From: Magnolia sinica | Lineage: Eukaryota > Streptophyta > Magnoliopsida > Magnoliales > Magnoliaceae | Assembly: GCF_029962835.1 (NCBI RefSeq) | Contig: NC_080574.1 | Location: 25,828,001 to 25,892,000, forward strand | Reading direction: 5' to 3' | DNA: 64,000 nucleotides | Part shown: piece after piece, positions 11,291 through 64,000 of the stretch | How positions within the stretch are numbered: position 1 is the first letter of the stretch | Layout: the number at the start of each line of letters is the position of its first letter | Notes under the pieces: model-generated | Seen by the model: the letters and a program-made list of their open reading frames with translations, nothing else | Database searches by the model: none | Told to the model about the DNA's origin: nothing | Program-made: the position numbers and the translations under genes

Positions 11291-11299
11291 ACTATGATA

Positions 11300-11870: not shown

Positions 11871-11879
11871 TCGGTTCAA

Positions 11880-12290
11880 CGCCTAAAATGATCTGAGGAA
11901 GAGGATGGATGGCTTGGATTGAATATATACATCAAGGTGGGGCCTGCATAAGTGGCCCACCACTTCTTTCTCTTTCTTCCCTTTTTCTTTTTGCAAGCAC
12001 ACACCCATGGCAGTATACACACTCTATGTTTGCCTCACCCGTCCAGCGTCCAGTGACGCTGGACGGTATGGATAAACACATGCATTGTGGTGGGTCCCAC
12101 ATGGACGTGGCCCATCAACTATATATATGTATATATATTTATATATTAGTATAATATAAGTATACTATATATATATATATTCTCACCGGATGGTAAATTT
12201 TTGCCTAAAATGTGGTGGGCCTCACCATTGATGAATGGAGTGGATTTAACATGATTTGGTAGGGCCCACTTCATTCTAGGGTGGGGAAAG
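11880..12290. mobile_element. Family M MITE fragments around an AT-rich core
   Basis: CCTAAAATGATCTGAGG, GGATGGATGGCTTGGAT and CATCAAGGTGGGGCC at 11885-11945 match a right arm of family M. A second arm-like piece lies at 12058-12110. An (AT)n-like stretch covers 12120-12180. The fragments are broken and the original boundaries are lost. Confidence 0.45.
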
Positions 12291-12291
12291 A

Positions 12292-12330
12292 AAGAGAGAG
12301 ACTGAGAGAGAGAGAGAGTGAGAGAGATAT
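12292..12330. repeat. (GA)n microsatellite
   Basis: An imperfect GAGAGA tract lies between MITE fragments. Confidence 0.85.
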
Positions 12331-12389
12331 ACGGTGATAGAGAGGAGGGACCCCGCCACTATGGGCCCTCCATTGATACAACACATACA

Positions 12390-13139
12390 TCAAGTGGGTC
12401 CCACAACAAGTGGCCCTTAAAATTGAAAACAACGGTAGATCACCCACCTCTAGGCCTCCTCCTTGCTCCCTTAGCCTTTTATGCTCCTTGCCTTGCCTTT
12501 TGATGGAGGTTGATGGAAGATTGATGGTGTGGATGAAAGATGAGAGGGTGGGCTACACTTGTTATTTGGGAGAGAGCTTGGATATTGGAGCTCTCATGAG
12601 ATTTGAAAAATTGCTAGAGAATGAGAGGGAGAGATAGAAATAATGGATGAAGGGATGGGTGGAGTGGTGGTTGTAAGAAAAGGATGATGAGAGGTATGGC
12701 TTAGTTTGAAATTGGTGGGAAAGAGAGATGGTTGTGGTTGAAAATGAGAAAAAGAGGAATGGTGAGGTGGAAAGAGAGTGGACTTTTGAAAAAGTAGGGA
12801 TGGGTTGATGTACTTGAGGTAAGGCTTGTACTTGACATTGATTGATGGGACATATCGTAGAGATTCCCTCGAGATTCGCAACGCGCGGTGTTTCTTAGGA
12901 ATGAACGCAGGTCCACATCTCCTAGCCTAGGTATCGGTTCGGTGCGCAAGTCACGGCGTTGGAATCGCGGCGACGGCGCGGTCGCTATGTTACTAGTTTT
13001 GGTTCGAGCTGACTTCGGTATGCGGGACCTGGTTTACGATCGCGCGCAATCGTCGGATACGATGCGAAGGTTGCCGGAATTCGACTGGAAGGACCGCGGA
13101 AGCTAACGGAACGGTACGGACTGGGACACGGGTCTTACA
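12390..13139 (+). other. Non-coding; possible distal end of a long LTR
   Basis: A GA-rich part (12540-12800) is followed by GC-rich sequence with GGCGACGGCGCGG and GCGGAAGCTAACGG, ending GACACGGGTCTTACA at 13139. That ending loosely resembles gypsy LTR 3' termini. It could be the far end of the LTR-like sequence that starts at 9012, which would then be about 4.1 kb with nested MITEs. No 5-bp target duplication is evident. Both the link and the boundary are weak. Confidence 0.25.
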
Positions 13140-39420: not shown

Positions 39421-39733
39421 CTCAAGAACAACCTAATTAGATGTTAGTATTAGAATTTTCCATTAAATAGCGTTAGTAGATTGTTTCGCGCCAAGTTACT
39501 AATGAAAACAGAAGCATGTATAAAAACTAAGCTAATTAGATATTAGTAGTAAAATTTAGATGGCTCGTGTCTCTTAATCCCCACAAAACACAAAAACAAG
39601 ATGTGGTCGGATTAAAAACTACATGTGTTAACAACAACTTAATTAGATGTTAGTATTAAAATTTCCATTAAATAGCTTTAGTAGATTCTTCATCGCCATG
39701 TTACTCTTGAAAACAAAGGCATGTATAAAAACT

Positions 39734-39852
39734 AGTGTTTCAAATAGCGCCCGTAGCGTAGCGGTAGTGTACACTATGTACTGTAACGTGATTGTAGCAC
39801 TACATATCATCCTAAATAGTATAAATGTACGCTATAGGGGTCGTAGCATACG
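39734..39852 (+). mobile_element. Deleted copy of the hAT-like insertion in satellite A
   Basis: AGTGTTTCAAATAGCGCCCG to GTAGCATACGTT is homologous to the first part of the element at 40065. It lies at the same point of the neighbouring monomer, before TTAAAACTAAGC. The right-hand part is missing. Confidence 0.75.
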
Positions 39853-40064
39853 TTAAAACTAAGCTAATTAGATATTAGTAGTAGAATTTAGATGACTCGT
39901 GTCCCTCAATCCCCACAAAACACAAAAACAAGATATGGTTGGATTAAAAATTGCATGTGTCAACAACAACCTAATTAGATGTTAGTATTAGAATTTCCAT
40001 TAAATCGCGTTAGTAGATTCTTCAGTGCCACGTTACTCTCGAAAACAAAAGCATGTATAAAAAC

Positions 40065-40686
40065 CAGTGTTTCAAATAGCGCCCGTAGCGTAGCGGTAGC
40101 ATACACTACATACCGTAGTGTGATTGTAGCTCTACATAGCGTCGTAAATAACATAAATGTACGCTATAGGGTTCGTAGCGTACGCTACAACTATGTAGCA
40201 TGTAGCGTCCGTAGCGTAAGCTCCAATGTATTTTTTTTACTATTTTATTTTCTTCACATTTTCTTTGTATCTAATGTTGAGGAATGTGACACTTGTATTA
40301 TACTTGATACTTTTAACCGATGAGATTTTTATTTCTTTTTATAATTATGACTTGTGGTTTCAATTAGACATTATTAATTAAAGTGGTTTGATTAGAAAGT
40401 TGTTGTTGTGCTAATTATTTGATTTGGCTTATATATGTGGATAGGCTTTTGAAAAATGATAACTAATAACTTGTTTGAAGATGCTTATAATTTATAAAAT
40501 TAATCATCTTTTAGGCATATTTATATTTGTTTTTTCTTTTTTACATATTTATTTATTTTTTTCCTTTTTTTCACTATTTATTATATTTGTCCTATTTTTA
40601 AATCAATCATCATTTAGTCTATAATAATGCTACACACTATAGAGGGCTGAGAGCTACGCACCATGCTACCGCTATTTAAAACACTG
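40065..40686. mobile_element. hAT-like element inserted in a type A monomer
   Basis: Terminal inverted repeats CAGTGTTTCAAATAGCG and (inverse of the right end) CAGTGTTTTAAATAGCG bound 622 bp. The flanking 8-mers are ATAAAAAC and TTAAAAAC, a probable 8-bp target duplication with one mismatch. The subterminal left part has many GTAGCGTA words. AT-rich filler has no transposase. The surrounding monomer resumes exactly at AAAAACTAAGC. Confidence 0.78.
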
Positions 40687-43600
40687 TTAAAAACTAAGCT
40701 AATTAGATATTAGTAATAGAATTTAGATGGCTTGTGTTTCTCAATCCTCACAAAACACACAAACAAGCTGGGGTTCAGATTAAAAACTGCATGTGTCAAC
40801 ATCAACCTAATTAGATGTTAATATTAGAATTTTCCATTAAATAGCGTTACTAGATTCTTCCACGCCATGGTACTCCTGAAAACAAAAGCATGTATAAAAA
40901 TTAAGCTAATTAGATATTAATAGTAAAATTTAGATGGGTTGTGTCTCACAATCCCCAAAAATTACACAAACAAGTTGTGGTTCGGATTAAAAACTGCATG
41001 TGTCAACAACAACCTAATTACATGTTGGTATTAGAATTTTTCATTAAATCGTGTTAGTAGATTCTTCCACGACATGTTACTCCTGAAAACAAAAGCATGT
41101 ATAAAAACTAACTAATTAGATATTAGTAGTAGAATTTAGATGGCTCGTGTCTCTCAACCCCCACAAAACACACAAATAAGCTGGGGTTCAGATTAAAAAC
41201 TGCATGTGTTAAGAACAATCTAATTAGATGTTAGTAGTAGAATTTTCAATTAAATAGCATTAATAGATTCTTCCACACCATGGCACTCCTGAAAACAAAA
41301 ACGAGTATAAAAATTAAGCTAATTAGATATTACAAGTAGAATTTAGATGGCTCGTGTCTCTCAATTACTATAAAACATACAAACAAGCTGTGGTCAGATT
41401 AAAAACTACATATGTCAACAACAACCCAATTAGATGTTAGCATTAGAATTTCCATTAAATAGCATTAGTAGATTCTTCCGTGCCATGTTACTCCTAAAAA
41501 CAAAAGCATGTATAAAAACTAAGCTAATTTGATATTAGTAGTAGAATTTAGATGACTCGTGTCTCTCAATCCGTACAAAATACACTGACAAGCTATGGTC
41601 AGATTAAAAACTGCATGTGTCAACAACAACCCAATTACATGTTAGTATTAGAATTTCCACTAAATAACGTTAGTAGATTCTTCCACGCCATGTTACTCCT
41701 GAAAACAAAAGCATGTATAAAAACTAAGCTAATTCGATATTAGTATTAAAATTGAGATGAATCGTGATCAGATTAAAAACTACATATGTCAACAACAACC
41801 CAATTAGATGGTAGTATTAGAATTTTCCATTAAATAGCGTTAGTAGATTCTTCCGCACTATTTTAATCCTGAAAATAAAAGCACATATAAAAACTACGCT
41901 TATTAGATCTTAGTAGTAGAATTTTGATGGTTGGTGTCTCTTAATCTCCACAAAACACACAAACAAGCGATGGTCGTTTTAAAAACTGCATGTGTTTTCA
42001 TGTAACTACGATCAAGCCATGTTACCAAAAAAAAAACTATGTTAAAACTTAGAAATTTTATTAAATTTAGTAGTTCTTTCATTGTATCTTTTATGTTAAC
42101 TTATCTAGCGTATAAAACCATATGTTAACAACTAAACTAGATGTTAGATTAGAATTTCCATTAAATAGCGTTAGTAGATTCTTCCACCACATGTACTTCA
42201 AAACAAAAGCAAGTATAAAATAAGCTAAATAGATATTAGTAGTAGAATTTAGGCTCGTTCTCTCAATCCCCATAAAAACGCAAACAAGTATGGGATTAAA
42301 AACTCATTGTCAACAACAACCCTATTAGATGTTAGTATTAGAATATCCATTAAATAGCGTTATAGATTCTTCCACATCTGAAAACAAAAGCAGTATAAAA
42401 CTAACAATTGGAATTTAGATCTTGCCTCAATTAAACACAACAACATGGTGATTAAAATACCATTTAACAACCAAATTAGATGTTAGTATTAAAATTTTAT
42501 TAAATAAGGTTAGTAGATTCTTCCGCGACATGTTACTCCCGAAAACAAAAGCAAGTATAAAAACTAAGCTAATTAGAATTGGACATTTAACCATCATTCC
42601 CATCAATGTGACATCAAACAAAACATTGCTCCTAGGAAAACCATTTAACAACCAAACATTAGATGTTAGTATTAGAATTTTATTAAATAATTAGTAGATT
42701 CTTCCACGACATGTTACTCCGAAAACAAAAGCAAGTATAAAAATAATCTAAATTAAAAGTAAATAGGAATTGGGTCTCGTTGAAATCAGTGTTAGAAATA
42801 GAATTTCTATTAAATAACGTTAGTAGATTCTTGCGAATTTACTCTGAAAACAAAAAAAGTTAAAAACATGCTTCAATACAGGAACGGTCACAATGTGGAC
42901 ATTTAACCATCATTACCCATCAATGTGGACATCTAACCAACATTGCTCCTAGGCCATTTAACAACCAAATAGATGTTAGTATTAAATTTTTTAAATAAGG
43001 TTAGTAGATTCTTCCGCGACATGTTACTCCAAAACAAAAGCAAGTATAAAACTATCACAATGCGTGCATTTAACCATCATTACCCATCAATGTATCATCT
43101 AACCAACATTGCTCCTAGAATACGGCCTGCTATAGATAGTGCTTGGGTGTTTCTATTAAATAAGTAGTAGATTCTTCCACGACATGTTACTGAAAAACAA
43201 AAGCAGTATAAAAACTGTCACCTCAATATTGTGGACATTTAACCATCATTCCCATCAATGTGGACATCTAACCAACATTGCTCCTAAAGTGGCATTTAAC
43301 AACCAAACTAGATGTTAGTATTAGAATTTCATTTAAATAGCGTTAGTAGATTCTTCCACATGTTACTCCGAAAAAAAAGCAGTATAAAAAGTCACGCCCC
43401 AAACTAAATCAAATGTAGACATTTAACCATTATTGCCATCAATGTGGACATCTAACCAACATTATTCTAGATGGCCATTTAACAACCAAATAGATGTTAG
43501 TTAGAATTTCTATTAAATAGCGTTAGTAGAATTTTTCGCTTTATAAAAAAAACAAGTATAAAAACTAAGCTAAATGTGGACATTTAACCATCATTGCCCA

Positions 43601-44706
43601 TCAATTGGACATTTAACCAACACTAGGAGTGGGCATTTAACAACCAAATTAGATGTTAGTATTAGAATTTCTATTAAATAGCTTAGTAGATTCTTCCGCC
43701 ATGTTACTCCGAAACAAAACAAGTATAAAAATTACGCCCCAAAGCTTAAAGAGCTCCAATGTGGACATTTAACCATCAATTCCCATCAATGGGACATCTA
43801 ACCAACATTGCTCCTAAGTGGCCATTTAACAACCAAACTAATGTTAGTATTAGAATTTCTATTAAATAGCTTAGTAGATTCTTCCACGATATTACTCCCA
43901 AAAACAAAAGCAAGTATAAAACCAGTCGCCTCCTAAACCGGGCTCACAATGTGGACATTTAACCATCATTCCCATCAATGTGGACATCTAACCAACATTG
44001 CTCCTAGAGTGGCCCATTTAAAAACCAAACTAGATGTTAGTATTAGAATTTCTATTAAATAGTTTTAGTAGATTCTTCCACGACATGTTACTCCTCAAAA
44101 CAAAAACAAGTATAAAAACTATCAGACCCCAAATCAGGGACGGTCACAATGTGGACATTTAACCATCATTGCCCATCAATGTGGACATCTAACCAACATT
44201 GCTCCTAATGGCCATTTAACAACCAAATAGATGTTAGTATTAGAATTTTATTAAATAGCGTTAGTAATTTCTTCCCCATGTTACTCCGAAAAACAAAAGC
44301 AAGTATAAAATATGAATCAAAGGTCACAATGTAGACATTTAACCATCATTGCCCATCACTGTGGACATTTAACCAACATTGCTCCATAGGAGTGGCCATT
44401 TAACAACCAAACTAGTTGTTAGTATTAGAATTTCTATTAAATAGAGTTAATAGATTCTTCCGCGACATGTTACTCCTGAAAACAAAAGCAAGTATAAAAC
44501 TGTAGCGCCTTAAACTTGAAAATCAGGCTCACAATGTGGACATTTAACTATCATTGCCCATCAATGTGGACATCTAACCAACATTGCTCCCTAGGAGTGG
44601 CCATTTAACCACTAAAATAGATATTAGCATTAGAATTTTTATCAAATAGCGTTAGTAGATTCTTCCACGACATGTTACTCCTAAAAACAAAAGAAAGTAT
44701 AAAAAC

Positions 44707-44847
44707 TGTCATGCCCTAAACTCGGAAACCGGGCTCACAATGTGGACATTTAACCATCATTGCCCATAAATGTGGACATCTAACCAACATTGGTCCCTAA
44801 GAGTGGCCCACATAGAGCCAAACATAAAGTGAGCCCATGACCTCACA
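44707..44847 (+). mobile_element. Junction monomer 1: full 141-bp LTR-derived insert in type A
   Basis: It begins TGTCATGCCCTAAACTCGG and ends GTGAGCCCATGACCTCACA, flanked by AAAAC at 44702-44706 and 44848-44852. Unlike ordinary type B units it continues past GAGTGGCCCA into CATAGAGCC and then the type A half resumes (TAAGCTAATTAG). Confidence 0.72.
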
Positions 44848-47800
44848 AAAACTAAGCTAATTAGATACTAGTAGTAGAATTTAGATGGCTCATGTCTCTC
44901 AATCCCCACAAAACTCGAAAACCGGCTCACAATGATGGACATTTAACCATCATTGCCCATCAATGTGGACATTCTAACCAACATTGCTCCTATGGCATGG
45001 GTGAGAGGCCATTTCACAATCAAACTAGATATTAGCATTAGAATTTCTATTAAATAGTGTTATTAGAATCTTCCGCGACATGTTACTCCTGAAAAGAAAA
45101 GCAAATATAAAAACTGTCACACCCTAATTTGAAATTGGGCTCATAATGTGAATATTTAACCATCATTGCTCATCAATGTGGACATCTAACCAACATTACT
45201 ACCTAAGAGTGGCCATTTAACAACAAAATTAGATGTTAGTATCAGAATTTCTGTCGTTAGTAGATTCTTCCGCGATATGTTACTCTTGAAAACAAAAACA
45301 ACTATAAAAATTGTCACGCAATGTAGACATTTAACGATCATTGCCCATCAATGTGGACATCTAACCAACATTGCCCCCTAGAAGTGGCCATTTAACAACA
45401 TAACTAGATGTTAGTAATAGAATTTCAATTGAATAGCATTAATAAATTCTTCCGCGATATGTTAATCCTGAAAACAAAAATAATTATAAAAATTGTCAAC
45501 TTGGCCCACAATGTGAACGTTTAACCATCATTGCCCATCAATGTTGACATCTAACCAACATTGCTCCTTAGGAGTGGCCATTTAACAACCAAACTTGATG
45601 TTAGTAATAGAATTTCAATTGAATAACATTATTAAATTCTTCCGCGATATGCTACACCTGAAAACAAAAACAAATATAAAAACTGTCTCGCCCCAAACTC
45701 GGCAACCGGGCTCACAATGTGGACATTTAACCATAATTGCCCATCAATGTGGACATCTAACCAACATTGCTCCCTAAGAGTGGCCATTTAACAACCAAAA
45801 TAAATGTTAGTATGAGAATTTCTATTAAATAGCGTTAGTAGATTCTTCCGCGACATGTTACTCCTGAAAACAAAAGCAAGTATAAAAACTGTCACGCCCC
45901 AAACTCGAAAACCGGGCTCACAATGTGGACATTTAACCATCATTGCCCATCAATGTGGACATCTAACCAACATTGCTCCCTAGGAGTGGCCATTTAACAA
46001 CCAAACTAGATGTTAGTATCAAATGTTAGTAGATTCTTCCGCGAAATGTTACTCCTGAAAACAAAAGCTAGTATAAAAACTGCCACGCCCCAAACTTGGA
46101 AACCGGGCTCAAAATGTGGACATTTAACCATCATTGCCCATCAATGTGGACATCTAACCAACATTGCTCCCTAGGAGTGGCCATTTAACAACCAAACTAG
46201 ATGTTAGTATTAGAATTTCTATTAAATAGCGTTAGTAGATTCTTCCGCGACATGTTACTCCTGAAAACAAAAGCAAGTATAAAAATTGTCACGCCCCAAA
46301 CTCGGAAACCGGGCTCACAATGTGGACATTTAACCATCATTGCCCATCAATGTGGACATCTAACCAACATTGCTCCCTAGGAGTGGCCATTTAACAACCA
46401 AACTAGATGTTAGTATTAGAATTTCTATTAAATAGCATTAGTAGACTCTTCCTCGACATGTTAATCCTGAAAACAAAAGCAAGTATAAAAACTGTCACAC
46501 CACAAACTAGGAAACTAGGCTCACAATGTGGACATTTAACCATCATTGCCCATCAATGTGGACATCTAACCAACATTGCTCCCTAGGAGTGGCCATTTAA
46601 CAACCAAACTAGATGTTAGTAATAGAGTTTCTATTAAATAGCGTTAGAAGATTCTTCCGCGACATGATACTCCTGAAAACAAAAGCAAGTATAAAAACTG
46701 TCACGCCCCAAACTCAAAAACCGGGCTCACAATGTGGACATTTAACCATCATTGCCCATCAATGTGGACATCTAACCAACATTGCTCCCTAGGAGTGGCC
46801 ATTTAACAACCAAACTAGATGTTAGTATTAGAATTTCTATTAAATAGCGTTAGTAGAATCTTCCGCGACATGTTACTCCTGAAAAGAAAAGCGAGTATAA
46901 AAAAGGTCACCACCCAAACTCGAAAACCGATCTAACAATGTAGACATTTAACCATCATTGCACATCAATGTCTACATCTAACCAACATTGATCCCTAGCA
47001 GTGGCCATTTAACAATCAAACTAGATGTTAGTATTAGAATTTCTATTAAATAAAGTGAGAAGATTCTACCACGACATGTTACTCCTGTAAAAAAAAAAGT
47101 AGGTATAAAAATTTTCACAGCCAAAACTTGGAAACTAGGCTCAAAATGTGGATATTTAACCATCATTGCCCATCAATGTGGACATCTAACCAACATTACT
47201 CCCTACGAGTGGCCAATTAACAACCAAACTAGATTTTAGTATTAGAATTTCTTTTGAATCACGTGAGTAGATTCTTCCGCGATATGTTATACCTGAAAAC
47301 AAAAACAAGTATAAAAACTGTCACACCCCAAACTCGAAAACCGGGCTCACAATGTGGACATTTAACCATCATTGCCCATCAATGTGGACATCTAACCAAC
47401 ATTGCTCCCTAGGAGTGGCCATTTAACAACCAAACTAGATGTTAGTATTAGAATTTCTATTAAATAGCGTTAGTAGATTCTTCCGCGACATGTTACTCCT
47501 GAAAACAAAAGCAAGCCCCAAACTCGGAAACCGGGCTCACAATGTTGACATTTAAACATCATTGCCCATCAATGTGGACATTTAACCAACATTGCTCCCT
47601 AAGAGTGGCCATTTAACAACCAAACTAGATGTTAGTATTAGAATGTATCTTAAATAGTGTTAGTAGATTCTCCCGCGAAATGTTACTCCTGAAAAAAAAA
47701 CAATTATAAAAACTGTCACGCCCCAAACTCGGAAACTGGGCTCACAATGTGGACATTTAACCATCATTGCCCATCAATGTGGACATCTAACCAACATTGC

Positions 47801-48418
47801 TCCATAGGAGTGGCCATTTAACAACCAAAATAGATGTTAGTATTTGAATTTTTATTAAATAAAGTTAGGACATGTTACTCCTGAAAACAAAAGCAAGTAT
47901 AAAAACTGTCATGCCCCAAACTCGGAAACCGGGCTCACAATGTGGACATTTAACCATCATTGCCCATCAATGTGGACATCTAACCAACATTGCTCCCTAG
48001 GAGTGGCCATTTAACAACCAAACTAGATGTTAATATTAGAATTTCTATTAAATAGCGCTACTAGCTAGTATAAAAATTGTCACGGCCCAAACTCGGAAAC
48101 CGGGCTCAAAATATGGACGTTTAACCATCATTGCCCATCAATGTGGACATCTAACCAATATTGCTTCCTAGGAGTGGCCATTTAACAACCAAACTAGTTG
48201 TTACTATTAGAATTTCTATTGAATAGCTTTAGTAGATACTTTCGCGACATGTTACTCCTTAAAACAAAAACAAGTACAAAAACTGTCACGCCCCAAAATC
48301 TGAAACCTGGGCTCACAATCTGAACATTTAAACATAATTGCCCATCAATGTGGCCATTTAACAACCAAACTAGATGTTAGTATTAGAATTTCTATTAAAT
48401 TGTGTAGATTCTTAAATG

Positions 48419-48423
<5 letters not shown>

Positions 48424-48491
<68 letters not shown>

Positions 48492-48522
48492 CCGACATTG
48501 TAAAAAAAAAAAAAAAAAAAAA
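48424..48522. repeat. Poly(T) then poly(A) inside a type B monomer
   Basis: About 68 T, then CCGACATTG, then about 20 A, replace the region where neighbours read CTCCTGAAAACAAAAGC. The two runs are complementary and could form a hairpin. Overlapping frames on both strands are meaningless. Confidence 0.9.
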
Positions 48523-49077
48523 GCACGCCAGAAACCAACCTCACAATGTAAACATTTAACCATCATTGCCTATCAATGTGGACGTCTAACCAACATTGCT
48601 CCCTAGGAGTGGCCATTTAACAAACAAAATAGATGTTAGTATTAGAATTTCTGTTAAATAGCGTTAGTGGATTCTTCCCCAAAATATTACTCCTGAAAAC
48701 AAAAAAATTATAAAAATTTAAAATCAAAACCCTTTAACCATCATTGCCCATCAATGTGGACATCTAACCAACATTGCTCCATAGGAGTGGCCATTTAACC
48801 ACCAAAATAGATGTTAGTATTTGAATTTTTATTAAATAAAGTTAGAAGATTCTTCCACGACATGTTACTCATGAAAAAAAAAAACAAGCAAGTGTAAAAA
48901 TTGTCACTGTGCAAACTCGAAAACCGGGCTCAAAATTTGGACATTTAACCATCATTACCCATCAATGTGGACATCTAACCAACATTGCTTCCTAGGAGTG
49001 GCCATTTAACAACCAAACTAGTTGTTACTATTAGAATTTCTATTGAATAGGGTTAGTAGATTCTTTCACGACATTCT

Positions 49078-49370
49078 ATTAAATAAAGTGAGAAGATTCT
49101 TCCACGACATGTTACTGCCGAAAATAAAAAAGTATAAAAATTATCAGTGCGGACATCTAACCATCATTGCTCGCAAGGAGTGGCCGTTTAACAATCAAAC
49201 TAGATGTTAGTATTAGAATTTCTATTAAATAAAGTGAGAAGATTCTTCCACGACATGTTACTGCCGAAAATAAAAAAGTATAAAAATTATCAGTGCGGAC
49301 ATCTAACCATCATTGCTCGAAAGGAGTGGCCGTTTTACAATCAAACTAGATGTTAGTATTAGAATTCTTT
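49078..49370 (+). repeat. Tandem pair of shortened 146-bp type B units
   Basis: ATTAAATAAAGTGAGAAG starts at 49078 and 49224. Both units lack the LTR-start motif and one GTGGACAT copy, reading TATCAGTGCGGACATC instead. A deleted monomer was evidently duplicated. Confidence 0.8.
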
Positions 49371-51959
49371 CACGACATGTTACTCCTGAAAACAAAAGCA
49401 AGTATAAAAACTGTCACGCCCCAAACTCGGTAACCGGGCTCACGATATTGACATTTTAACCATCATTGCTCATCAATGTAGACATCTAACCAACATTGCT
49501 CCCTATGAGTGTCCATTTAACAACCAAACTAGATGTTAGTATTAGAATTTTCATTAAATAACGTTAGTAGATTCTTCCACAACATGTTACTCTTGAAAAA
49601 AAAAACATGTATAAAAATTGTCAAGCCCCAAACTCGGAAACTGGGCCTACAATGTGGACATTTAACCATCATTGCCCATCAATGTGGACATCTAACCATT
49701 ACTGCCCATCAATGTGATAACAACAAAACTAGATTTTAGTATTAGAATTTCTTTTGAATCACGTTAGTAGATTCTTGCGATATGTTACTCGAAAAAATAA
49801 GTATAAAAACTCGCCTCAACTCGAAAGCGGGCTCCTGATGTGGACATTTAACCATCATTGCCATTAATGTGGACATCTAACAACATTGCTCCCAAGGCCA
49901 TTTAATAACCAAACTATATGTTAGTATTAGAATTTTATAAAATAGCGTTAGTAGATTCTTGCGATATGTTACTAAAACAAAATTAAAAGCATAAACTGAT
50001 AGGAGCTCTGATGTGACATTTAAACATCATTGCCCATGTGGACATTTAACCAACATTGCTCCCCAGGAGTGGCAACAAACAAACTAGATGTTAGTATTAG
50101 AATGTATCTTAAATAGTGTTAGTAGATTCTCATGAAATGTTACTCGAAAAAAACAATTATAAAAGCTGTCACCCCTGGGCTAGGCTCACGATGTGGACAT
50201 TTAACCAATATTGCTCCCTAGGAGTGGCCATTTAACAACCAAACTAGATGTTAGTATTAGAATGTATCTTAAATAGTGTTAGTAGATTCTCCCGCGAAAT
50301 GTTACTCCTGAAAACAAAAACAATTATAAAAACTGTCACGCCCCAAACTCGAAAACCGGGCTCAAAATTTGGACATTTAACCATCATTACCCATCAATGT
50401 GGACATCTAACCAACATTGCTTCCTAGGAGTGGCCATTTAACAACCAAACTAGTTGTTACTATTAGAATTTATATTGAATTACGTTAGTAGATTCTTTCG
50501 CGACATGTTACTCGTTCAAACAAAAATAAGTATAAAAACTGTCACGCCCCAAAATCTGAACCTGGGCTCACAATCTGAACATTTAAACATAATTGCCTAT
50601 CAATGTGGACATCTAACCATCATTGCTCCGAAGGAGTAGCCACTTAACAATCAAACTAGATGTTAGTATTAGAATTTCTATTAAATAAAGTGAGAAGATT
50701 CTTCCACGACATGTTACTCCTGCAAAAAAAAGTAAGTATAAAAATTGTCACGGCCCAAACTCGGAAACCGGGCTCAAAATGTGGACATTTAACCATCATT
50801 GCCCATCAATGTGGACATCTAACCAACATTGCTTCCTAGGAGTGGCCATTTAACAACCAAACTAGTTGTTACTATTAGAATTTCTATTGAATAGCTTTAG
50901 TAGATACTTTCGCGACATGTTACTCCTTAAAACAAAAACAAGTATAAAAACTGTCACGCCCCAAAATCTGAACCTGGGCTCACAATCTGAACATTTAAAC
51001 ATAATTGCCTATCAATGTGGACATCTAACCATCATTGCTCCCAAGGAGTGGCCGTTTAACAATCAAACTAGATGTTAGTATTAGAATTTCTATTAAATAA
51101 AGTGAGAAGATTCTTCCACGACATGTTATTCCCACAATAAAAAAAAAAAGGATAAAAATTATCAATGTGGACCTTTAACCATCATTGCTCGCAAGGAGTG
51201 GCCGTTTAACAATCAAACTAGATGTTAGTATTAGAATTTCTATTAAATAAAGTGAGAAGATTCTACCACGACATGTTACTCCTGTAAAAAAAAAAGTATA
51301 AAAATTGTCACGGCCCAAACTCGGAAACTGGGCTCAAAATGTGGACATTTAACCATCATTGCCCATCAATGTGGACATCTAACCAACATTGCTTCCTAGG
51401 ACTAGCCATTTAACAACCAAACTAGTTGTTAGTATTAGAATTTCTATTAAATAGCGTTAGTAGATTCTTTCGTGACTTGTTACTCTTGAAAACAAAAGCA
51501 AGTATAAAACCGGTCGCGCCTCAAACTTGAAAACCGGGCTCACAATGTGGACATTTAATCATCATTGCCCATCAATGTGGACATCTAACCAACATTACTC
51601 CCTACGAGTGGCCAATTAACAACCAAACTAGATTTTAGTATTAGAATTTCTTTTGAATCACGTCAGTAGATTCTTCCGCGATATGTTACACCTGAAAACA
51701 AAAACAAGTATAAAAACTGTCACGCCCCAAACTCGAAAACCGGGCTCACAATGTGGACATTTAACCATCATTGCCCATTAATGTGGACATCTAACCAACA
51801 TTTCTCCCTAGAAGTGGCCATTTAACAACCAAACTATATGTTAGTATTAGAATTTTTATAAAATAGCGTTAGTAGATTCTACCGCGATATGTTACTCCTG
51901 AAAACAAAATCAATTATAAAAACTGCCAAGCCCCAAACTCGGAAACCGGGCTCACAATG

Positions 51960-52095
51960 TTTCATAATAAATATGCAAATGATACGTATGGGCATGTATC
52001 ATAATGCTATACTGTCACATACTCATAATCAGTACCGATAATCAGCCTTGACAATCGGGCTCAATAATCAATCGGCCTAACAAAGGGCCTAAGGG
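51960..52095 (+). mobile_element. Extra LTR-like interior retained in one type B monomer
   Basis: Between CGGGCTCACAATG and AAGGCTCACAATG, the 11-bp GGCTCACAATG being repeated at both sides, lies about 120 bp found nowhere else in the array. It includes GATACGTATGGGCATGTATC, GATAATCAGCC and GGGCCTAAGGGAAGG. The last word, followed by GTGGACATTTAACC, parallels GGGCCTTAGGGAGAG and GGACATTTAACC at 10321-10360. Confidence 0.72.
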
Positions 52096-55000
52096 AAGGC
52101 TCACAATGTGGACATTTAACCATCATTGCCCATCAATGTGGACATTTAACCAACATTGCTCCCTAGGAGTGACCATTTAACAACCAAACTAGATGTTAGT
52201 ATTAGAATGTATCTTAAATAGTGTTAGCAAATTCTCCTGCGAAATGTTACTCCTGAAAAAAAAAACAATTATAAAAACTGTCACGCCCCAAACTCGGAAA
52301 CTGGGCTCACAATGTGGACATTTAACCATCATTGCCCATCAATGTGGACATCTAACCAACATTGCTCCATAGGAGTGGCCATTTAACCACCAAAATAGAT
52401 GTTAGTATTAGAATTTCTATTAAATAGCATTAGTAGATTCTTCCACGACATGTTAGTCCTGAAAATAAAAGCAAGTATAAAAACTATCACGCCCCAAACA
52501 AGGAAACCGGGCTCACAATGTGGACATTTAACCATCATTGACCATCAATGTGGACATCTAACCAACATTGCTCCCAAGGAATAGCCATTTAACTACCAAA
52601 CTAGATGTTAATATTAGAATTTTTATTAAATAAAGTTAGAAGATTCTTCCACGACATGTTACTCATGAAAAAAAAAAGCAAGTGTAAAAATTGTCACGGC
52701 CCAAACTCGAAAACTGGGCTCAAAATGTGGACATTTAACCATCATTGCCCATTAATGTGGACATCTAACCAACATTTCTCCCTAGAAGTGGCCATTTAAC
52801 AGCTAAACTATATGTTAGTATTATAATTTTTATAAAATAGCGTTAGTAGATTCGACAGCGATATGTTACTCCTGAAAACAAAATCAATTATAAAAACTGC
52901 CAAGCCCCAAACTCGGAAACCGGGCTCACAATGTTGACATTTAAACATCATTGCCCATCAATGTGGACATTTAACCAACATTGCTCCCTAGGAGTGGCCA
53001 TTTAACAACCAAACTAGATGTTAGAATGTATCTTAAATAGTGTTAGTAGATTCTCCCGCGAAATGTTACTCCTGAAAAAAAAACAATTATAAAAACTGTC
53101 ACGCCCCAAACTCGGAAACTGGGCTCACAATGTGGACATTTAACCATCATTGCCCATCAATGTGGACATCTAACCAACATTGCTCCATAGGAGTGGCCAT
53201 TTAACCACCAAAATAGATGTTAGTATTAGAATTTCTATTAAATAGCATTAGTAGATTCTTCCACGACATGTTAGTCCTGGAAATAAAAGCAAGTATAAAA
53301 ACTATCACGCCCCAAACAAGTAAACCGGGCTCATAATGTGGACATTTAACCATCATTGACCATCAATGTGGACATCTAACCAACATTGCTTCCAAGGAAT
53401 AGCCATTTCACTACCAAACTAGATGTTAGTATTTGAATTTTTATTAAATAAAGTTAGAAGATTCTTCCACGACATGTTACTCATGAAAAAAAAAAACAAA
53501 CAAGTGAAAAAATTGTCACGACCCAAACTCGGAAACCGGGCTCAAAATATGGACGTTTAACCATCATTGCCCATCAATGTGGACATCTAACCAATATTGC
53601 TTCCTAGGAGTGGCCATTTAACAACCAAACTAGTTGTTACTATTAGAATTTCTATTGAATAGCGTTAGTAGATTCTTTCGCGATATGTTACTCCTGAAAA
53701 CAAAAACAAGTATAAAAATTGTCACGCCCGAAACTCGGAAACTGGGCTCACAATGTGTGCTTTTAACCATCATTTCCTATCAATGTGGACATCTAACCAA
53801 CATTGCTCCCTTGGAGTGGCCACTTAACAACCAAACTAGATGTTAGTATTAGAATTTCTATTAAATAGAGTTAGTAGATTCTACTATGATATGTTACTCC
53901 TGAAAACAAAAACAATTATAAATATTGTCATGCCTAAACTCGAAAACCAGGCTCACAATATGGACATTTAAACATCATTGTCCATCAATGTGAACATTTA
54001 ATCAACATTACTCCCAAGGAGTGGGCATTTAACAATCAAACTAGATGTTAGTATTAGAATTTATATTAAATAGCGTTAGTAGATTCTCTCGTGAAATGTT
54101 ACTCCTGAAAAGAAAAACAAATCTAAAAACTGTCACGCCCCAAACTCGAAAACCGGACTCACAATGTGGACATTTAACCATCATTGCTTATCAATGTGGA
54201 CATCTAACCAACATTACTCCCTAGGAGTGGTCATTTAACAACCAAACTAGATAGTATTACAATTTCATTTAAATAGCGTTGCTAGATTCTTCCGTGACAT
54301 ATTACTCCTGAAAAGAAAAGAAAGTATAAAAACTGTCACGCCCCAAACTCGGAAACCGGGCTGACAATGTGCACATTTAACCATTATTTCCCATCACTGT
54401 GGACATCTAACCGACATTGCTCCCTAAGAGTGGCCATTTAACAACCTAATTAGATGTTAGTATTATAATTTCTATTAAATAGCGTTAGTAGATTCTTCAG
54501 CAACATGTTACTCCGGAAAACAAAAGCAAGTATAAAAACTGACACGCGCCAAATTCAGAAACCAAGCTCACAATGTGAACATTTAACCATCATTGCCCAT
54601 CAATGTGGACATCTAACCAACATTGCTCCCTAAGAGTGGCCATTTAACAACCAAAGTAGAAGTTAGTATTAGGATTTCTATTAAATAACATTAGTATACT
54701 CTTCCGTGACATGTTACTCCTGAAAGCAAAAGCAAGTATAAAAACAGTCACGCCCCAAACACAGAAACCGGGCTCAGACATTTAACCATCATTGTCCATA
54801 AATGTGGACATCTAACCAACATCTCCCTAGGAGTGGCCATTTAACCACCAAAATAGATGTTAATATTAGAATTTTTATTAAATAGCTCCACGACATGTTA
54901 CTCCTGAAAACAAAAGCAAGTATAAAAACTGTCACGCCCCAAAATCTGAACCCAGGCTCATAAAGTGGACATTTAACCATCATTGCTCAATCTAACCAAC

Positions 55001-58000
55001 ATTGCTCCCTAGGAGTGGCCATTTAACAATCAAACTAGATGTTAGTATTAGAATTTCTATTAAATAAAGTTACTAGATTCTTCCACGACATGTTACTCCT
55101 GAAAAAAAATGCAAATATAAAAATTGTCACGGCCCAAACTCGGGATTCGGGCTCACAATGTGGACATTTGACCGTCATTGCCCATCAATGTGGACATCTA
55201 ACCAACATTGCTTCCTAGGAGTGGCCATTTAACAACCAAACTAGCTGTTAGTATTAGAATTTTCAATAAATAGTTAGTAGATTCTTTTGCGACAGGTTAC
55301 TCCTGAAAACAAAAGCAGGTATAAAACATGTCATGCCTCAAACTTGGAAATCCGGTTCACAATGTGGACATTTAACCATCATTGCCAATCAAAGTGGATA
55401 TACCAACATTACTCCGAAAGAGTGCCCAATTAACAACCAAACTAGATGTTAGTAATAGAATTTCTATTGAATAGCGTTAGTAGATTCTTCCGCGATATCT
55501 TACACCTGAAAATAAAAACAAGTATAAAAACAGTCACGCCCCAAATTTGGAAATCGGGCTCACAATGTAGACCTTTAACCGTCATTGCCCATCAATGTGG
55601 ACATCTAACCAACATTGCTCCCTAGGAGTGGCCATTTAACAACCAAACTAGATGTTCGTATTGAAATTTCTATTAAATAGTGCTAGTAGATTCTACCTCG
55701 ATATGTTACTCCTGAAAACAAAAATAATTATAAAAACTATCACGACCCAAACTCGAAAACCGGGCTCACTATGTGCACATTTAAACATCATTGCCCATCA
55801 ATGCATACATTTAACCAACATTGCTCCCTAAGAGTGGTCATTTAACAACCAAACTAGATGTTAGTATTAGAATATATATTAAATAGAGTTAGTAGATTCT
55901 TCCGAGAAATATTACTCCTGAAAACAAAAGGAATTATAAAAACTGTCACGCCCCAAACTCAGTAACTGGGCCTACAATATGGAGATTTAACCATCATTGC
56001 CCATCAATGTGGACATCTAACCAACATTGCTCCCAAGGAGTGGTCATTTAACAACAAAACTAGATGGTATTACAATTTCATTTAAATAACGTCAGTAGAT
56101 TCTTCCGCAACATGTTACTCCTGAAAAGAAGAGCAAGTATAAAAACCATTACGCGCCAAACTCGAAAACCGGGCTTACAATGTGGACATTTAACCATCAT
56201 TGTCCATCAATGTGGACATCTAACCAACATTGCTCCCTAGAAATATCCATTTAACTACCAAACAAGATGTTAGTATTGAAATTTTTATTAAATATCATTA
56301 GTAGATTCTTCTGCGACATGTTACTCCTGAAAACAAAAGCAAGTATAAAAACTGTCACGCCCCAAACTTGAAAACCGTGCTCACAATGTGGACATTTAAC
56401 CATCATTGCACATAAATGTGGACATCTAACCAACATTGCTCCCTAAGAGTGACCATTTAACAACCAAACTAGATGTTAGCATTAGAATTTCTATTAAATA
56501 GCGTAAGTAGAATATTCCGCGACATGTTACTCCTAAAAAGAAAAGCAAATATAAAAACCGTCACGCCCCAAACTTGGAAACCGGGCTCACAATGTGAATA
56601 TTTAACCATCATTGCCCATCAATGTTGACATCTAACCAACAATGCTCCCTAAGAGTATCCATTTAACAACCAAAGTAGAAGTTAGTATTAGAATTTCTAT
56701 TAAATAGCGTTAGTAGATTCTTCCTTGACATGTTACTCATGAAAGCAAAAGCAAGTATAAAAACTGTCACGCCCCAAACTTGAAAACCGGTCTAACAATG
56801 TGGACATTTAACTATCATTGTCCATCAATGTGGACATCTAACCAACATTGCTCCCTAGGAGTGGCCATTTCAACCAAACTAGATGTTAATATTAGAATTT
56901 TTATCAAATAAAGTTATTAAATTCTTCCACGACATGTTACTCCTGAAAACAAAAGCAAGTATAAAAACTGTCACGCCCCAAAATCCGAACACGGGATCAA
57001 AATGTGAATATTTAACCATCATTGCTCATCAATGTGGACATCTAACCAACATTGCTCCCTAGGGGTGGCCATTTAACAATCAAACTAGATGTTAGTATTA
57101 GAATTTCTATTAAATAAAGTTATAAGATTCTTCCACGTCATGTTAATCCTGGAAAAAAAAAAAAGCAAGTATAAATATTGTCACGGCCCTAACTCGGAAG
57201 CCGGGCTCAAAATGTGGACATTTAACCATCATTGCCCCACAAATGTGGACATCTAACCAACATTGCTTCCTAAGAGTGGCCATTTAACAACAAACTACTT
57301 GTTAGTATTAGAATTTCTATTAAATAGTGTTTGTACATTTTTTCGCGACATGTTACTCCTGAAAGCAAAAGCAAGTATAAAACCTGTCGCGCCTCAAACT
57401 CAAAAACTGGGCTCACAATGTGTACACTTAACCATCATTACCCTTCAATGTGGACATCTAACCAACATTACTCCCTAGGAGTAGCCAATTAACAACCAAA
57501 CTACATGTTAGTATTAAAATTTCTATTGAATAGTGTTAGTAGATTTTTCCGCGATATGTTACACCTGAAAACAAAAACAAGTATAAAAACTGTCAAGGCC
57601 CAAACTCGGAAATGGGGCTCACAATGTGGACATTTAACCATCATTGCCCATCAATGTGGACATATAACCAACATTGCCCATCAATGTGGACATCTAACCA
57701 ACATTACTGCCTATGAGTGGCCATTTAACAACCAAACTAGATGTTAGTATTAAAATATCTATTAAATAGCGTTAGTAGATTCTACCGCGATATGTTACTC
57801 CTGAAAACAAAAACAATTAATTGTCACGCCCCAAACATGAAAACCGGGCTCACAATGTGGATATTTAACCATCATTACCCCATCAATGTGTACATTTTAC
57901 CATCATTACCCATCAATGTGGACATTTAAAAACCAAACTACATGTTAGTATTAGAATGTATATTAAATAGCGTTAGTAGATTCTTCCGTGAAATGTTACT

Positions 58001-59024
58001 CCTGAAAACAAAAACAATTATAAAAACTGTCACCCCCCAAACTCAGAAACCGAGCCCACAATGTGAACGTTTAACCATCATTGCCCATCAATGTGGTGGA
58101 CATCAAACCAACATTGCTCCCTAAGAGAGGTCATTTAACAACCAAACCAGATGTTAGTAACATTACTCCCTAGGATAGGTCATTTAACAACCAAACTAGA
58201 TGTTAATATTACAATTTCATTTAAATAGCGTTAGTAGATTATACCGCGACATGTTACTTCAGAAAAGAAAAGCAAGTATAAAAACTTTCACGCCCCAAAC
58301 TCGAAAACCGGGCCGACAATGTACACATTTAACCATCCTTGCCCATTATTATGTACATCTAACCGACATTGCTCCCTAGGAGTGGCCATTTAACAACCAA
58401 ACTAAATGTTAGTATTACAATTTCTATTAAATAGCGTTAGTAGATACTTCCTCGCCATGTTACTCCTGAAAACAAAAGCAAGTATAAAAACTGTCACGCC
58501 CCAAACTCAGAAACCAGGCTCAAAATGTAGATATTTTAACTGTCATAGCCTATCAATGTGGACATCTAACCAACATTGCTCCCTGGCAGTTGTCATTTAA
58601 CAACCAAACTAGATGTTAGAATTTCTATTAAATAGCATTAGTAGATTCTTCCGCGACATGTAACTCCTGAAAACAAAAACAAGTATGAAAATTGTCACGC
58701 CCCAAACTCGGAAACCGACCTCACAATGTCGACATTTAACCATCATTGCCCATCAATGTAGACATCTAACCAACATTGCTCCCTCAGAGTAGCCATTTAA
58801 CAACCAAACTAAATGTTAGTATTAGAATTTCCATTCAATAGCGTTAGTAAACTCTTCCGTGACATGTTACTTCGGAAAACAAAAGCAAGTATAAAAACTG
58901 TCACGTCCCAAACTCGAAAACCGGGCTCACAATGTAGACATTTAACTATCATTGAACATCAATGTAGACATATAACCAACATTGCTTCCTAGGACTGGCC
59001 ATTTAACAACCAAACTAGATGTTA

Positions 59025-59150
59025 CTCGGGTGGTAGACTCTCAGGAGTTTCAACACTAGGTCAAGGGTTCGCGTACCCATAGGTGGTGAAATTCCACTAC
59101 GGCGTGCGTGTGTGGTGTGGGGTGTAGGTGTGTGTGTAAAAAAAAAAAAA
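59025..59150 (+). mobile_element. tRNA-derived SINE with 7-bp TSD
   Basis: Starting CTCGGGTGGTAGACTC (A-box-like TGGTAGACTC), it has a B-box-like GGTTCGCGTACCC, then GTGGTGAAATTCCACTAC, a GT-rich tail and a terminal A-run. GATGTTA flanks both sides (59018-59024 and 59151-59157). It is the same family as 18313-18425 but keeps the 5' part. It interrupts a type B monomer at GATGTTA/GTAGTAG. Confidence 0.87.
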
Positions 59151-59649
59151 GATGTTAGCAGTAGAATTTTTATTAAATAGCGTTACTAGATTCTTCTGCG
59201 ACATATTACTCCTGAAAACAATAACAAGTATAAAGACCATCACGCCCCAAACTTGGAAACCGGGATCACAATGTAGACATTTAATCGTTATTGCCCATCA
59301 ATGTGGACATCTAACCAACATTGCTCCCTAGGAGTGGCCATTTAACAACCAAATTAGATGTTAGTATTAGAATTTTTATTAAATATTGTTAGTAGATTCT
59401 TCCGCGATATGTTAATCCTGAAAACAAAAGCAAGTATAAAAACTGTCACACCCTAAACTTGAAAACCGACCTCACAATGTGGACATTGAACCATCATTGG
59501 TCATCAATGTGGACATCTAACCAATATTGCTCCCTAGTAGTGGTCATTTAACAACCAAACTAGATGTTAGTATTGGAATTTCTATTAAATAGCGTTATTA
59601 GATTCTTCCGCGACATATTACTCCCGAAAATAAAAGAATATATAAAAAC

Positions 59650-59790
59650 GGTCACGCCCCAAACTCAAAAACCGGGCTCACAATGTGGACATTTAACTAT
59701 CATTGCCCATAAATATGAACATCTAACCAACATTGCTCCCTAGGAGTGGCCCATATAGAGCCAAGCATATAGTAAGCTCATGGCCTCACA
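59650..59790 (+). mobile_element. Junction monomer 2: full 141-bp LTR-derived insert in type A
   Basis: It has the same structure and length as 44707-44847: GGTCACGCCCC at the start and TCATGGCCTCACA at the end, flanked by AAAAC on both sides. It is followed by an intact type A half. Confidence 0.75.
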
Positions 59791-60190
59791 AAAACTAAGA
59801 TAATTAGATATTAATAGTAGAATTTAGATGACTCATGTCTCTCAATCCCCACAAAACACACAAACAAGCTGTGGTCGAATTAAAAACTGCACGTGTTAAG
59901 AACAAAACAATTAGATGTTAGCATTAGAATTTTCATTAAACACAGTTAGCTTCTTCCACGCCATGTTAGTCCTGAAAAGAAAAGCAAGTATAAAAACTAA
60001 GCTAATTAGATATTACTAGTAGAATTTAAGTGTCTCGTGTCTCTCAATCCCCACAAAATACACAAACAAGATGTGGTCGAATTAAAAAGTACATGTGTCA
60101 ATAACAACCAAATTAGATGTTAGTATTAGAATTTTTATTAAATAGTGTTAATAGATTCTTCCACGACATGTTATTCCTGAAAACAAAAGC
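59791..60190 (+). repeat. Type A island inside the type B array
   Basis: Nearly two type A monomers follow junction monomer 2 (GTCTCTCAATCCCC, AAACACACAAACAAGC). The array returns to type B at 60198 (TGTCACGCCCC). Confidence 0.9.
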
Positions 60191-63100
60191 AAGTATAAAA
60201 ACTGTCACGCCCCAAACTCAGAAACCAGGCTCACAATGTGGACATTTAACCATCATTACAAATCAATGTGGACATCTCATCGACATTACTCCCTAGGAGT
60301 GGCCATTTAACAACCAAACCAGATGTTACTATTACAATTTCTATTAAATATATTTAGTAGATTCATTCGAAATGTTACTCCTGAAAACAAAAGCAAGTAT
60401 AAAAACTGTCACGCCCAAACTCGGAAACCGGGCTCACAATGTAGACATTTAACCATCATTGCCCATAAATGTGGACATCTAACCAACATTGCTCCCTAGG
60501 AGTGGCCATTTAACAACAAAACTAGATGTTAGTATTAGAATTTCTATTAAATAACGTTAGTAGATTCTTCCACGACATGTTACTCCTGAAGAAGAAAAAA
60601 AAGCAAGTAAGAAAATTGTCACGCCCAAAACTCGAAAACAGGGCTCACAATGTGGACATTTAACCATCATTGCCTATCAATGTCGACATTTAACTTGCTC
60701 CCTAGTAGTTGCCATTTAACAACCAAACTATTTAGTATTAGAATTTCTATTAAATAGCGTTAGTAGATTCTTCCACGACTTGTTACTCCCGAAAATAAAA
60801 ACAAGTATAAAAACTGTTGTGCCTCAAACTCGGAAACCGGGTTCACAATGTGGACATTTAGCCATCATTGCCCATCAATGTGGACATCTAACCAACGCTG
60901 CTCCCTAAGAGTGGCCATTTAACAACCAAACTAGATGTTAGTATTAGAATTTCTATTAAATAGCATTAGTATTCTTCCATGATATGTTACACCTGAAAAT
61001 AAAAAACAAGTATAAAAACTTTCATGCCCCAAACTCAGAAATCGGGCTCACAATGTGGATATTTAACCATCATTGCCCATCAATGTAGACATCTAACCAA
61101 CATTGCTCCTTAGGAGTCGCCATTTAACCATCAAAATAAATGTTATTATTAGAATTTCTATTAAATAGCGTTAGTAGATTCTTCCACGACATGTTACTCC
61201 TAAAAACAAAAGCATAAAAACTGTCACGCCCCAAACTCGAAAACCGGGCTTACAATGTGGACATTTAACCATCATTGCTAATCAATGGGGACATCTAACC
61301 AACATTGCTATCGAGGAGTGGCCATTTAACAACCAAACTAGATGTTAGTATTAGAATTTCTATTAAATAGCATTAGAAGATTCTTCCGCGACATGTTATT
61401 CCTGAAAACAAAACCAAGTATAAAAACTGTCACGCCCCAAACTCGGAAACTGGGCTAAAAATGTATACATTTAACCATCACCGCCCATCAATGTGGACAT
61501 CTAACCAACATTGCTCCCAATGAGTGGCCAACAACCAAACTAGATGTTAGTATTAGAATTTCTACTAAATAGCGTTAGTAGATTCTTCCACGACATGTTA
61601 CTCCTGAAAAGAAAAAAAGTATGAAAACCGTCACGCCTCACACTAGGAAACCGGAAACACAATGTGGACATTAATCATCATTGCCCATCAATGTGGACAT
61701 CTAACCAACATTGCTCCCTAGGAGTGGCCATTTAACAATCAAACTAGATGTTAGTATTAAAATTTCTATTAGATATCATTAGTATATTCTTCCGCGACAT
61801 GTTACTCCTAAAAATAAAAGCAAGTATAAAAACTATCACGCCCTAAAATAGTAAACCGTGCTCACAATGTGTATATTTAACTATCATTGCCCATCAATGT
61901 GGACATCTAACCCACATTGTTCCCTATATGCTAGTATTAGAATTTCTATTAAATAGCGTTAGTATATTCTTTAGCGACATGTTACTCCTGAAAACAAAAG
62001 CAATTATAAAAACTGTCACGCTCGAAACTCAAAAATCGGGCTCACAATGTAGACACTTAACCATCATTGCCCATCAATGTTGACATATAACCAATATTGC
62101 TCCCTAGGAGTGGCCATTTAACAACCAAACTAGATGTTAGTATTAAAATTTCTATTAGATAACGTTAGTAAATTCTTCCACTACATGTTATTCCTAAAAA
62201 CAAAAGCAAGTATAAAAACTGTCACGCCCCAACCTCGGAAATCAAGCTCACCATGTGGACATTTAGCCATCATTGCCCATCAATGTGGACATCTAACCAT
62301 CATTGCTCCCTAGGAGTGGCCATTTAACAACCAGACTAGATGTTAGTATTAGAATTTCTATTAAATAGCGTTAGTAGATTCTTCCGCGAGATGTTACTCC
62401 TAAAATCAAAAGCAATTTTAAAAACTTTTACACCCCAAATTCGAAAACCGAGCTCATAATGTAGACATTTAACCATCATTGCCTATCAATGTGGACATCT
62501 AACCAACATTGATTCCTATGAGTGGCATTTAACAATCAAACTAGATGTTAGTAATAGAATTTCTATTTAATAGCGTTAGTAGATTCTTCCGCGACATGTT
62601 ACTCCTGAAAACAAAAGCAAGTATAAAAATTGTCACGCACTAAACTTGGAAACCGGGCTCACAATGTGTACATTAACCATCATTCCCATTAATGTAAACA
62701 TCTAACCAACATTGCTCCCTAGGAGTGGCCATTTAACAACCAAACTAGATGTTAGTATTAGAATTTCTATTAAGTATCATTAGTATATTCTTCCTTGACA
62801 TGTTACTCCTGAAAATAAAATCAAGTATAAAAATTATCACGCCCTAAACTCGAAAAGCGGGCTCACAATGTGGACATTTAACCATCACTACCCATCAATG
62901 TGGACATCTAGCCAACATTCCTCCCTAGGAGTGACCATTTTAACAAACAAACTAGATGTTGGTATTAGAATTTCTATTAAATAGCGTTAGCAGATTCTTC
63001 CGCAACATGTTTCTCATGAAAACAAAAGCAAGTATAAATTTTGTCACGCCCAAACTCAAAAACCGGGCTCACAATGTGTACATATAACCATCATTATCCA

Positions 63101-63670
63101 TCAATGTGGACATTTAACCAACATTGCTCCCTAGGAGTGGCCATTTAACAATCAAACTAGATGTTAATATTAGAATTTCTATTAAATAGCGTTAGTAGAT
63201 TCTTCTACGACAAGTTACTCCTAAAAACAAAAGCAAGTATAAAAACTGTCACACCCCAAACTCGGAAACCGGGCTCACAATGTGGACATTTAACCATCAT
63301 TGCCCAGCAATGTGGACATCTAACCAACATTGCACCCTAGGAGTGGCCATTTAACAACCAAAATAGATGTTAGTATTTTAATTATATTAAAAAAGCATTA
63401 GTATATTCTTCCGCGACATGTTACTACGGAAAAAAAAATAAGCATAAAAACTGTCATGCCCCAAACTCGGAAACCGAACTCATAATGTGGACATTTAACC
63501 ATCATTGCCTTTCTATGTGGACATCTAATCAACATTGCTCCCTAGGAGTGGCCATTTAACAACTAAACTGGATATTAGTATTAGAATTTCTACTAAATAG
63601 TGTTAATAGATTCTTCCACGACATGTCCATCATTGCCAATCAATATGGACATCTAACCAACATTGCTCCC
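60190..63670 (+). repeat. Type B satellite array, continuation
   Basis: About 17 monomers of the same structure as 42560-59790, with ordinary substitution-level divergence. Confidence 0.94.
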
Positions 63671-64000
63671 TAGGAGTGGTCCTCATATAGTGAGCTCATG
63701 GCCTCATAAAAACAAAGGTAATTAGATGGCTCATGGCCTCACAAAAACAAAGGTAATTAGATATATTAGTAGTAGAAATTAGATGGCTCATGTCTCTCAA
63801 TCCCCACAAAACTCACAAACAAGATGGGGTTCGATTTAAAAATTGCATGTGTCAAGAACAACCCAATTAGATGTTAGTAGTAGAATTTTCCATTAAATAG
63901 CGTTTGTAGATTCTTCCGCACTGTTACTCCTAAAAACAAAATCTTATATAAAAACTAAGTTAATTAAATATTAGTTGTAGAATTTTGTTGACTCGTGTCT
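63671..64000 (+). repeat. Junction 3 and type A monomers running off the window
   Basis: GAGTGGTCCTCATATAG and CTCATGGCCTCA-TAAAAAC repeat the LTR-end junction. A local duplication of about 40 bp (GCTCATGGCCTCA, AAAAACAAAGGTAATTAG) follows, then type A sequence to the window end. Confidence 0.85.

Follow-up and report, generated by a model that had tools for sequence, protein, structure and literature searches.

A composite satellite in Magnolia sinica and its probable origin from an LTR insertion into an older monomer

The window analysed here, a stretch of 64,000 nucleotides of Magnolia sinica (contig C2:25828001-25892000), contains arrays of a satellite (monomer B) in which one half of an older monomer (A) is combined with sequence from a long terminal repeat (LTR). 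A third form, C, is an A monomer that still carries the LTR-derived insert. Since ancestor, insertion stage and product coexist and their joints can be read to the base, it is possible to order the events, from insertion through shortening and duplication to spread. We consider it likely that an LTR inserted into an A monomer and was shortened internally to give C, that a slip of one monomer then produced B, and that B spread by unequal exchange.

The arrays and their three monomers

The assembly searched comprises 1.84 Gb in 127 contigs. Monomers were segmented with the shared half as anchor in nine stretches (254.8 kb including the window, partly non-satellite), and 686 intervals of at most 1,200 bp were kept, two longer gaps being excluded. 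They consist of 429 B, 157 A, 50 C, 16 partial C, two 'bt' and 32 unclassified intervals. The modal lengths are 205 bp for A (43 monomers, with 39 more at 206 bp, or 82 of 157 at one of the two lengths), 206 bp for B (172 of 429, with 63 at 205 bp) and 351 bp for C (30 of 50). The initial annotation had described two types that share one half and keep a period of about 206 bp. Both points hold, A and B being anchored alike on a common half of about 90 bp, and its guess of about 100 B to 15 A in the window comes close to the 94 B, 10 A, 2 C, 1 partial C and 7 unclassified intervals obtained by segmentation. The one B monomer measured consists of 90 bp of shared half, 102 bp of LTR sequence and 14 bp more, and of the 19 uninserted A that were parsed, out of 43 A monomers, 18 divide 90/115 at the place of insertion. 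The window features are as follows, all on the + strand.

9012..13139, +: solo-type LTR, about 4.1 kb, of a family related to the captured sequence, bounded by copy starts and a recurrent 3' end
9012..9045, +: 5' terminus of the LTR, corresponding to the opening 34 bp of the B unique half (94.6% over 37 bp, E=6e-12)
10337..10409, +: inner part of the LTR that holds two GGACATTTAACC-type words and corresponds to the remainder of the B unique half (81.8-83.6%, E to 2e-14)
39437..42324, +: A monomers, for the most part of 205-207 bp, with three larger ones (332, 836 and 333 bp)
42000..44300, +: A and B monomers rich in deletions, 12 events per monomer (n=12), probably poor assembly consensus
44300..63567, +: B block with a period of about 206 bp and two C monomers inside
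44617..45024, +: C monomer (A plus insert), 408 bp, recombined further downstream
44702..44706, +: AAAAC, left copy of the target-site duplication, 5 bp
44707..44847, +: LTR-derived insert TG...CA, 141 bp
44848..44852, +: AAAAC, right copy of the target-site duplication
51834..52188, +: 355-bp B with extra LTR sequence upstream of the words (51962-52174 against L053, 79.8%, E=1e-50)
59560..59910, +: canonical C, 351 bp, followed by an A of 202 bp at 59911-60112
63568..63866, +: partial C that closes the B block on the right, with A monomers after it

The B block reported earlier is real, but its proposed start at 42560 falls in the deletion-rich stretch, and the sequence of the block is more trustworthy from about 44,300 on. 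Because the 12 deletion events per monomer at 42000-44300 compare with 0.4-2.2 in nine other bins and with 5.2 in 48-50 kb, this stretch is probably a collapsed or unpolished assembly consensus. One B monomer contains an unbroken run of 69 T (48423-48491).

A genome-wide count of A, B and A with insert, which the initial annotation had suggested, was made by pattern matching with up to three mismatches, more diverged copies being missed, and gave 224 A sites, 750 B joints and 83 C joints. The B places listed lie on contigs C1, C2, C3, C5, C10 and C15 and on the small contigs C112, C113 and C116, several of the listed satellite places are less than 6 Mb from a contig end, and A is found in the same genomic regions as B. 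The sequences form long head-to-tail arrays at several loci, as satellite DNA does, and part of the monomer comes from a dispersed transposable element (TE), as in composite or TE-derived satellites. We would expect no function beyond array structure. In the window and in C113, A stands at the array edge and B further in, a position that fits A being the older of the two. The two halves of A are themselves weakly alike (for instance at 41430-41634; mean score 19.6 against 9.6 when shuffled, sd 3.0, 43 monomers of 205 bp), and A perhaps goes back to an old dimer whose unit was about 103 bp long.

In C, the A monomer is interrupted at one fixed place by a 141-bp insert flanked by duplicated AAAAC, and the lengths add up exactly (351 = 205+141+5). 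The insert begins with TG and ends with CA (TGTCA...CTCACA, single copies varying), as an LTR does, and AAAAC falls within the 4-6 bp of a target-site duplication, the uninserted A site being known and reading GTATAAAAACTAAGC. The combination of TG...CA ends with a 5-bp duplication is the signature left by LTR integration. The structure of C therefore points to capture by LTR insertion with a 5-bp target-site duplication and later shortening inside the element, which supports the earlier proposal of LTR capture followed by amplification and sharpens it, since the whole insertion survives as C. The joints read GTATAAAAAC-TGTCACG...CTCACA-AAAACTAAGC with individual variation. Among 56 C right joints from the window and L033-L052, the left joint was found within 5 mismatches of 16 in 53 and the right joint within 3 of 16 in all 56. 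When the 351-bp C monomers were parsed by exact short words, the insert measured 141 bp in 13 of 17 (13 more were unparsed); the other four gave 115, 115, 20 and 32 bp, which we take for wrong word matches, and AAAAC was exact on both flanks in 8 of the 17.

The C right joint occurs at 83 genomic places, all of them in clusters of satellite hits. The joint between the head of the insert and its words, the capture joint, occurs at 835 places, and all 100 of those listed are in such clusters; a stand-alone mini-LTR family as source was set aside, none being seen among these 100 listed of the 835.

Block order and the birth of B

A passes directly into B at 29 borders (the A measuring 202-207 bp at 21 of these) and B into A at seven, while B is followed by C 38 times, C by A 38 times, A by C 11 times and C by B five times. 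C stands between B and A in 27 of 50 cases and between A and A in 10 of 50. The A-C-A order is the one that would have preceded a duplication, and A-B-B-C-A is the order expected from a tandem duplication that ends inside the insert; the latter is mostly what is seen. The five C to B borders and the partial C forms indicate that later reshuffling occurred. Five of the 67 B runs end at an edge, and the 62 called right borders are with C (38), partial C (5), 'bt' (2), A forms (7) and unclassified units (10). At six of the seven B to A borders the 'A' retains the LTR head, and at the seventh it is truncated to 157 bp, so that no direct border from B to a full-length A was found in the arrays read. 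Most of the ten unclassified right neighbours resemble a shortened B, and two are A-like but truncated, with 144 bp (C2:137.54M) and 126 bp (in the deletion-rich stretch of the window); these two may hide direct B to A borders.

In the shared half, B and C have in common three alleles that most A lack, as expected if B copies the half to the left of the insert. Column 13 of this half separates B from A, but does not place C cleanly, and one of the three alleles common to B and C is mixed (0.53) in the A that follows C. No part of A stands out as the origin of the ATTT found at the B joint. The initial annotation saw in B an A monomer with one half replaced; replacement by LTR sequence stands, but the block order points to a tandem duplication beside the insertion.

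On the reading that we prefer, a one-monomer slip would have tandemly duplicated the unit formed by the shared half and the first 102 bp of the insert, joining the insert at GGAGTGGCC to the end of the preceding A half and so giving the first B, of 206 bp, directly to the left of C. Unequal exchange would then have expanded B inside the A arrays, and, to judge from the spacing, C and its adjoining A would have been carried along as parts of higher-order repeats. The same LTR insertion could instead have been followed by a deletion of about 145 bp from C, covering the insert tail and the A half, and by amplification of the product. B and C do share the left joint and the shared-half alleles, C minus B is 145 bp, and truncated A-like units exist after B. 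This deletion would nevertheless lead B into an intact A about as often as A into B, whereas full-length A was found at none of the seven B to A borders against 21 of the 29 A to B borders, and the length of A would have been restored by chance. We regard a deletion origin as unlikely, and B is probably not a trimmed C.

These border counts are not independent and overstate the evidence, since the array loci are partly copies of each other. A left-edge series of 206, 332, 816-836, 207, 206 and 206 bp is common to the window, C113 and C2:25.36M, and a right-edge series ending in 127, about 205 and about 740 bp is common to C112, C2:137.46M, C2:137.54M and C1:124.42M.

A length constraint had also been proposed for the common period. 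This found no support, and strict length selection was set aside, since other lengths recur too, among them units of 178, 294 and 351 bp as well as a spacing of 803 bp. In C116, C recurs every 1.4-1.8 kb or so, and in C1:1.716-1.732 Mb the 803-bp spacing is seen, which indicates that other unit lengths are amplified as well. A slip would account for the period in another way. In a misalignment by one monomer the insert faces the A half, and a switch there would yield a unit of about one A length with no selection on length; the observed difference is 1 bp, and a rough count of possible joint pairs puts the chance of A and B agreeing within 1 bp at about 2%. It is conceivable, though we hold it only tentatively, that a new satellite owes its period to the register in which the old array recombines, a one-monomer slip at an inserted foreign sequence stamping the old length on a half-unrelated unit. 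If so, conserved satellite monomer lengths could reflect the mechanism of their birth, without selection or nucleosome phasing. The higher-order repeat of C116 (L035-L038), of about 1.4-1.8 kb, is made of B206, B294, C351, A205 and B178, and 178+294+351 equals 4x206 within 1 bp.

The dispersed LTR family and the donor

The unique half of B had been reported to match an LTR-like start at 9012 and words at 10340-10400. Both matches are significant, the first at 9009-9045 (94.6%, E=6e-12) and the second at 10337-10402 (81.8%, E=5e-13), so that this half consists of 34 bp of the LTR 5' end and a segment lying 1.3-1.6 kb further in. The LTR start is real, since nine of 11 further copies in the genome show similarity from 9009-9012 onward (from 9044 and 9709 in the other two). 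The 3' end, ...GGGTCTTACA (13139 in the window), has 7,470 genomic matches against 21 for the reversed control. The bases after it vary among the matches listed, and GCTCTC, which recurs in some, is probably the start of the internal region. Because its flanks (GTAAT and TATAT) do not match, we call the window LTR solo-type without a recognisable target duplication. When the A half and the shared half were compared with window positions 1-39300, no match was better than E=0.036; the window LTR carries neither half, and the direction is hence from LTR to satellite. The two outcomes named in the initial annotation as contrary to capture, a unique half without LTR match and LTR copies derived from the satellite, were both checked and are at odds with these results.

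The left end of the insert coincides with the LTR terminus, while on the right it has just the final ACA in common with GGGTCTTACA. The insert tail occurs at 4,756 genomic places (control 0), dispersed and in some cases within arrays. Two copies of a second LTR subtype, L053 and L054, contain the complete 3' tail of the insert contiguous with the two words, and pairwise alignment of the last 45 bp of the insert with the window LTR gave no significant match (21 of 200 shuffles reached the score). The second subtype, of which these two copies were read in part, is on both grounds a better donor than the window LTR. A head reading CCCCAAACTC...GGGCTCACAA lies about 1.6 kb upstream of the words of L053, with 700 bases between them unread; this head starts TATCACTCC. 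TCACAA is common to the head at GGGCTCACAA and to the internal GGGTCACAATGAGG, and it is there that the insert joins them.

From the structure of C, an LTR of this high-copy family would have inserted once into one 205-bp A monomer, between GTATAAAAAC and TAAGC, duplicating AAAAC. A first inner deletion between the two TCACAA stretches would have removed about 1.3-1.6 kb, and a second would have joined internal ...CTCACA to the LTR end ...TTACA. This second step we only infer, since the last bases of the insert (CTCACA) fit the internal LTR equally well. The insert would by then have been cut to 141 bp, giving the 351-bp C.

In favour of filler DNA, an LTR fragment taken up in double-strand-break repair without integration of an LTR element, just 141 bp of an LTR of about 4.1 kb are present and the right end is internal LTR sequence. 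We think this improbable, somewhat more so than a deletion origin of B, given that the insert starts exactly at the LTR terminus, has TG and CA at its ends and is followed, where the satellite resumes, by the same 5 bp as stand before it. The reverse course, in which the LTR family took its words from the satellite, agrees with the shared words only and can practically be discarded, the LTR parts existing in thousands and 1.3-1.6 kb apart in the copies read, the window LTR having no A half and no shared half, and A existing without the insert.

Two long B monomers contain further LTR sequence, at 51962-52174 in the window (L053 type) and at 14720-14894 in C113 (L054 type, 86.3%). The 355-bp window monomer was rejected as a common ancestor of B, its left joint being found once genome-wide and the long B of C113 having the other LTR subtype. 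For the same reasons later exchange with dispersed LTRs is likelier, and the B arrays may still be exchanging with them. A 395-bp long B in C2:137.54M (L047-L048) continues past GGAGTGGCC with AT-rich, LTR-like sequence ending GGGCCT; beyond the words and a few bases, this extension had no match among the fetched LTR copies.

Other elements were observed in the window. A terminal-inverted-repeat element (CAGTGTTTCAAATAGCG ... CGCTATTTAAAACACTG), which we take to be hAT-like, lies in two adjoining A monomers (39734-39854 and 40065-40686), one copy being shortened; it is inserted at the same AAAAAC stretch as the LTR, and the pair recurs in C113 and C2:25.36M. A 339-bp B contains an insert (59049-59147) that is 82% identical to window 18309-18401 and looks like a SINE because of its tRNA-like GGTTCGC box and A-rich tail. 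Outside the arrays, a long inverted repeat (14090-14290 against 17618-17419, 84.7%) encloses opposed 21-bp tandem arrays at 14776-15555 and 16292-16702, and 14090-17618 is perhaps a foldback-type element.

Comparison with known systems

Bovine 1.711 satellites reportedly took in a foreign insert that was amplified together with them, and their inserts are said to be far longer than the one described here. For 1.711b, a unit of about 2.6 kb is given (PMC7644632). CRM1TR and CRM4TR of maize are tandem repeats built from LTRs, for which successive deletions at short homologies and growth by gene conversion are proposed; their monomers are wholly retrotransposon, whereas here one half comes from an older satellite and matches no LTR (PMC3648361). 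The Ogre-derived satellites of Lathyrus sativus are likewise plant satellites of LTR-retrotransposon origin, but they expand pre-existing tandem repeats of the 3' untranslated region of the element, whereas in the present case the end of an LTR went into a satellite that was already there (PMC7004042). Composite satellite monomers with segments of different origin are also treated in a review that calls their origin an open question and proposes that graveyards of degraded TEs are tandemised, in contrast to the single insertion into a working satellite, with its intermediate, that we propose (PMC12628747). No case of the same event appeared among the papers listed by a literature search by topic. 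TE-derived and composite satellites are thus already known, and what is new is an insertion stage that survives at the border of the derived block, together with a slip as proposed explanation for the kept period, a mechanical reason for a new satellite to retain the old period that could be tested in any satellite with a TE fragment.
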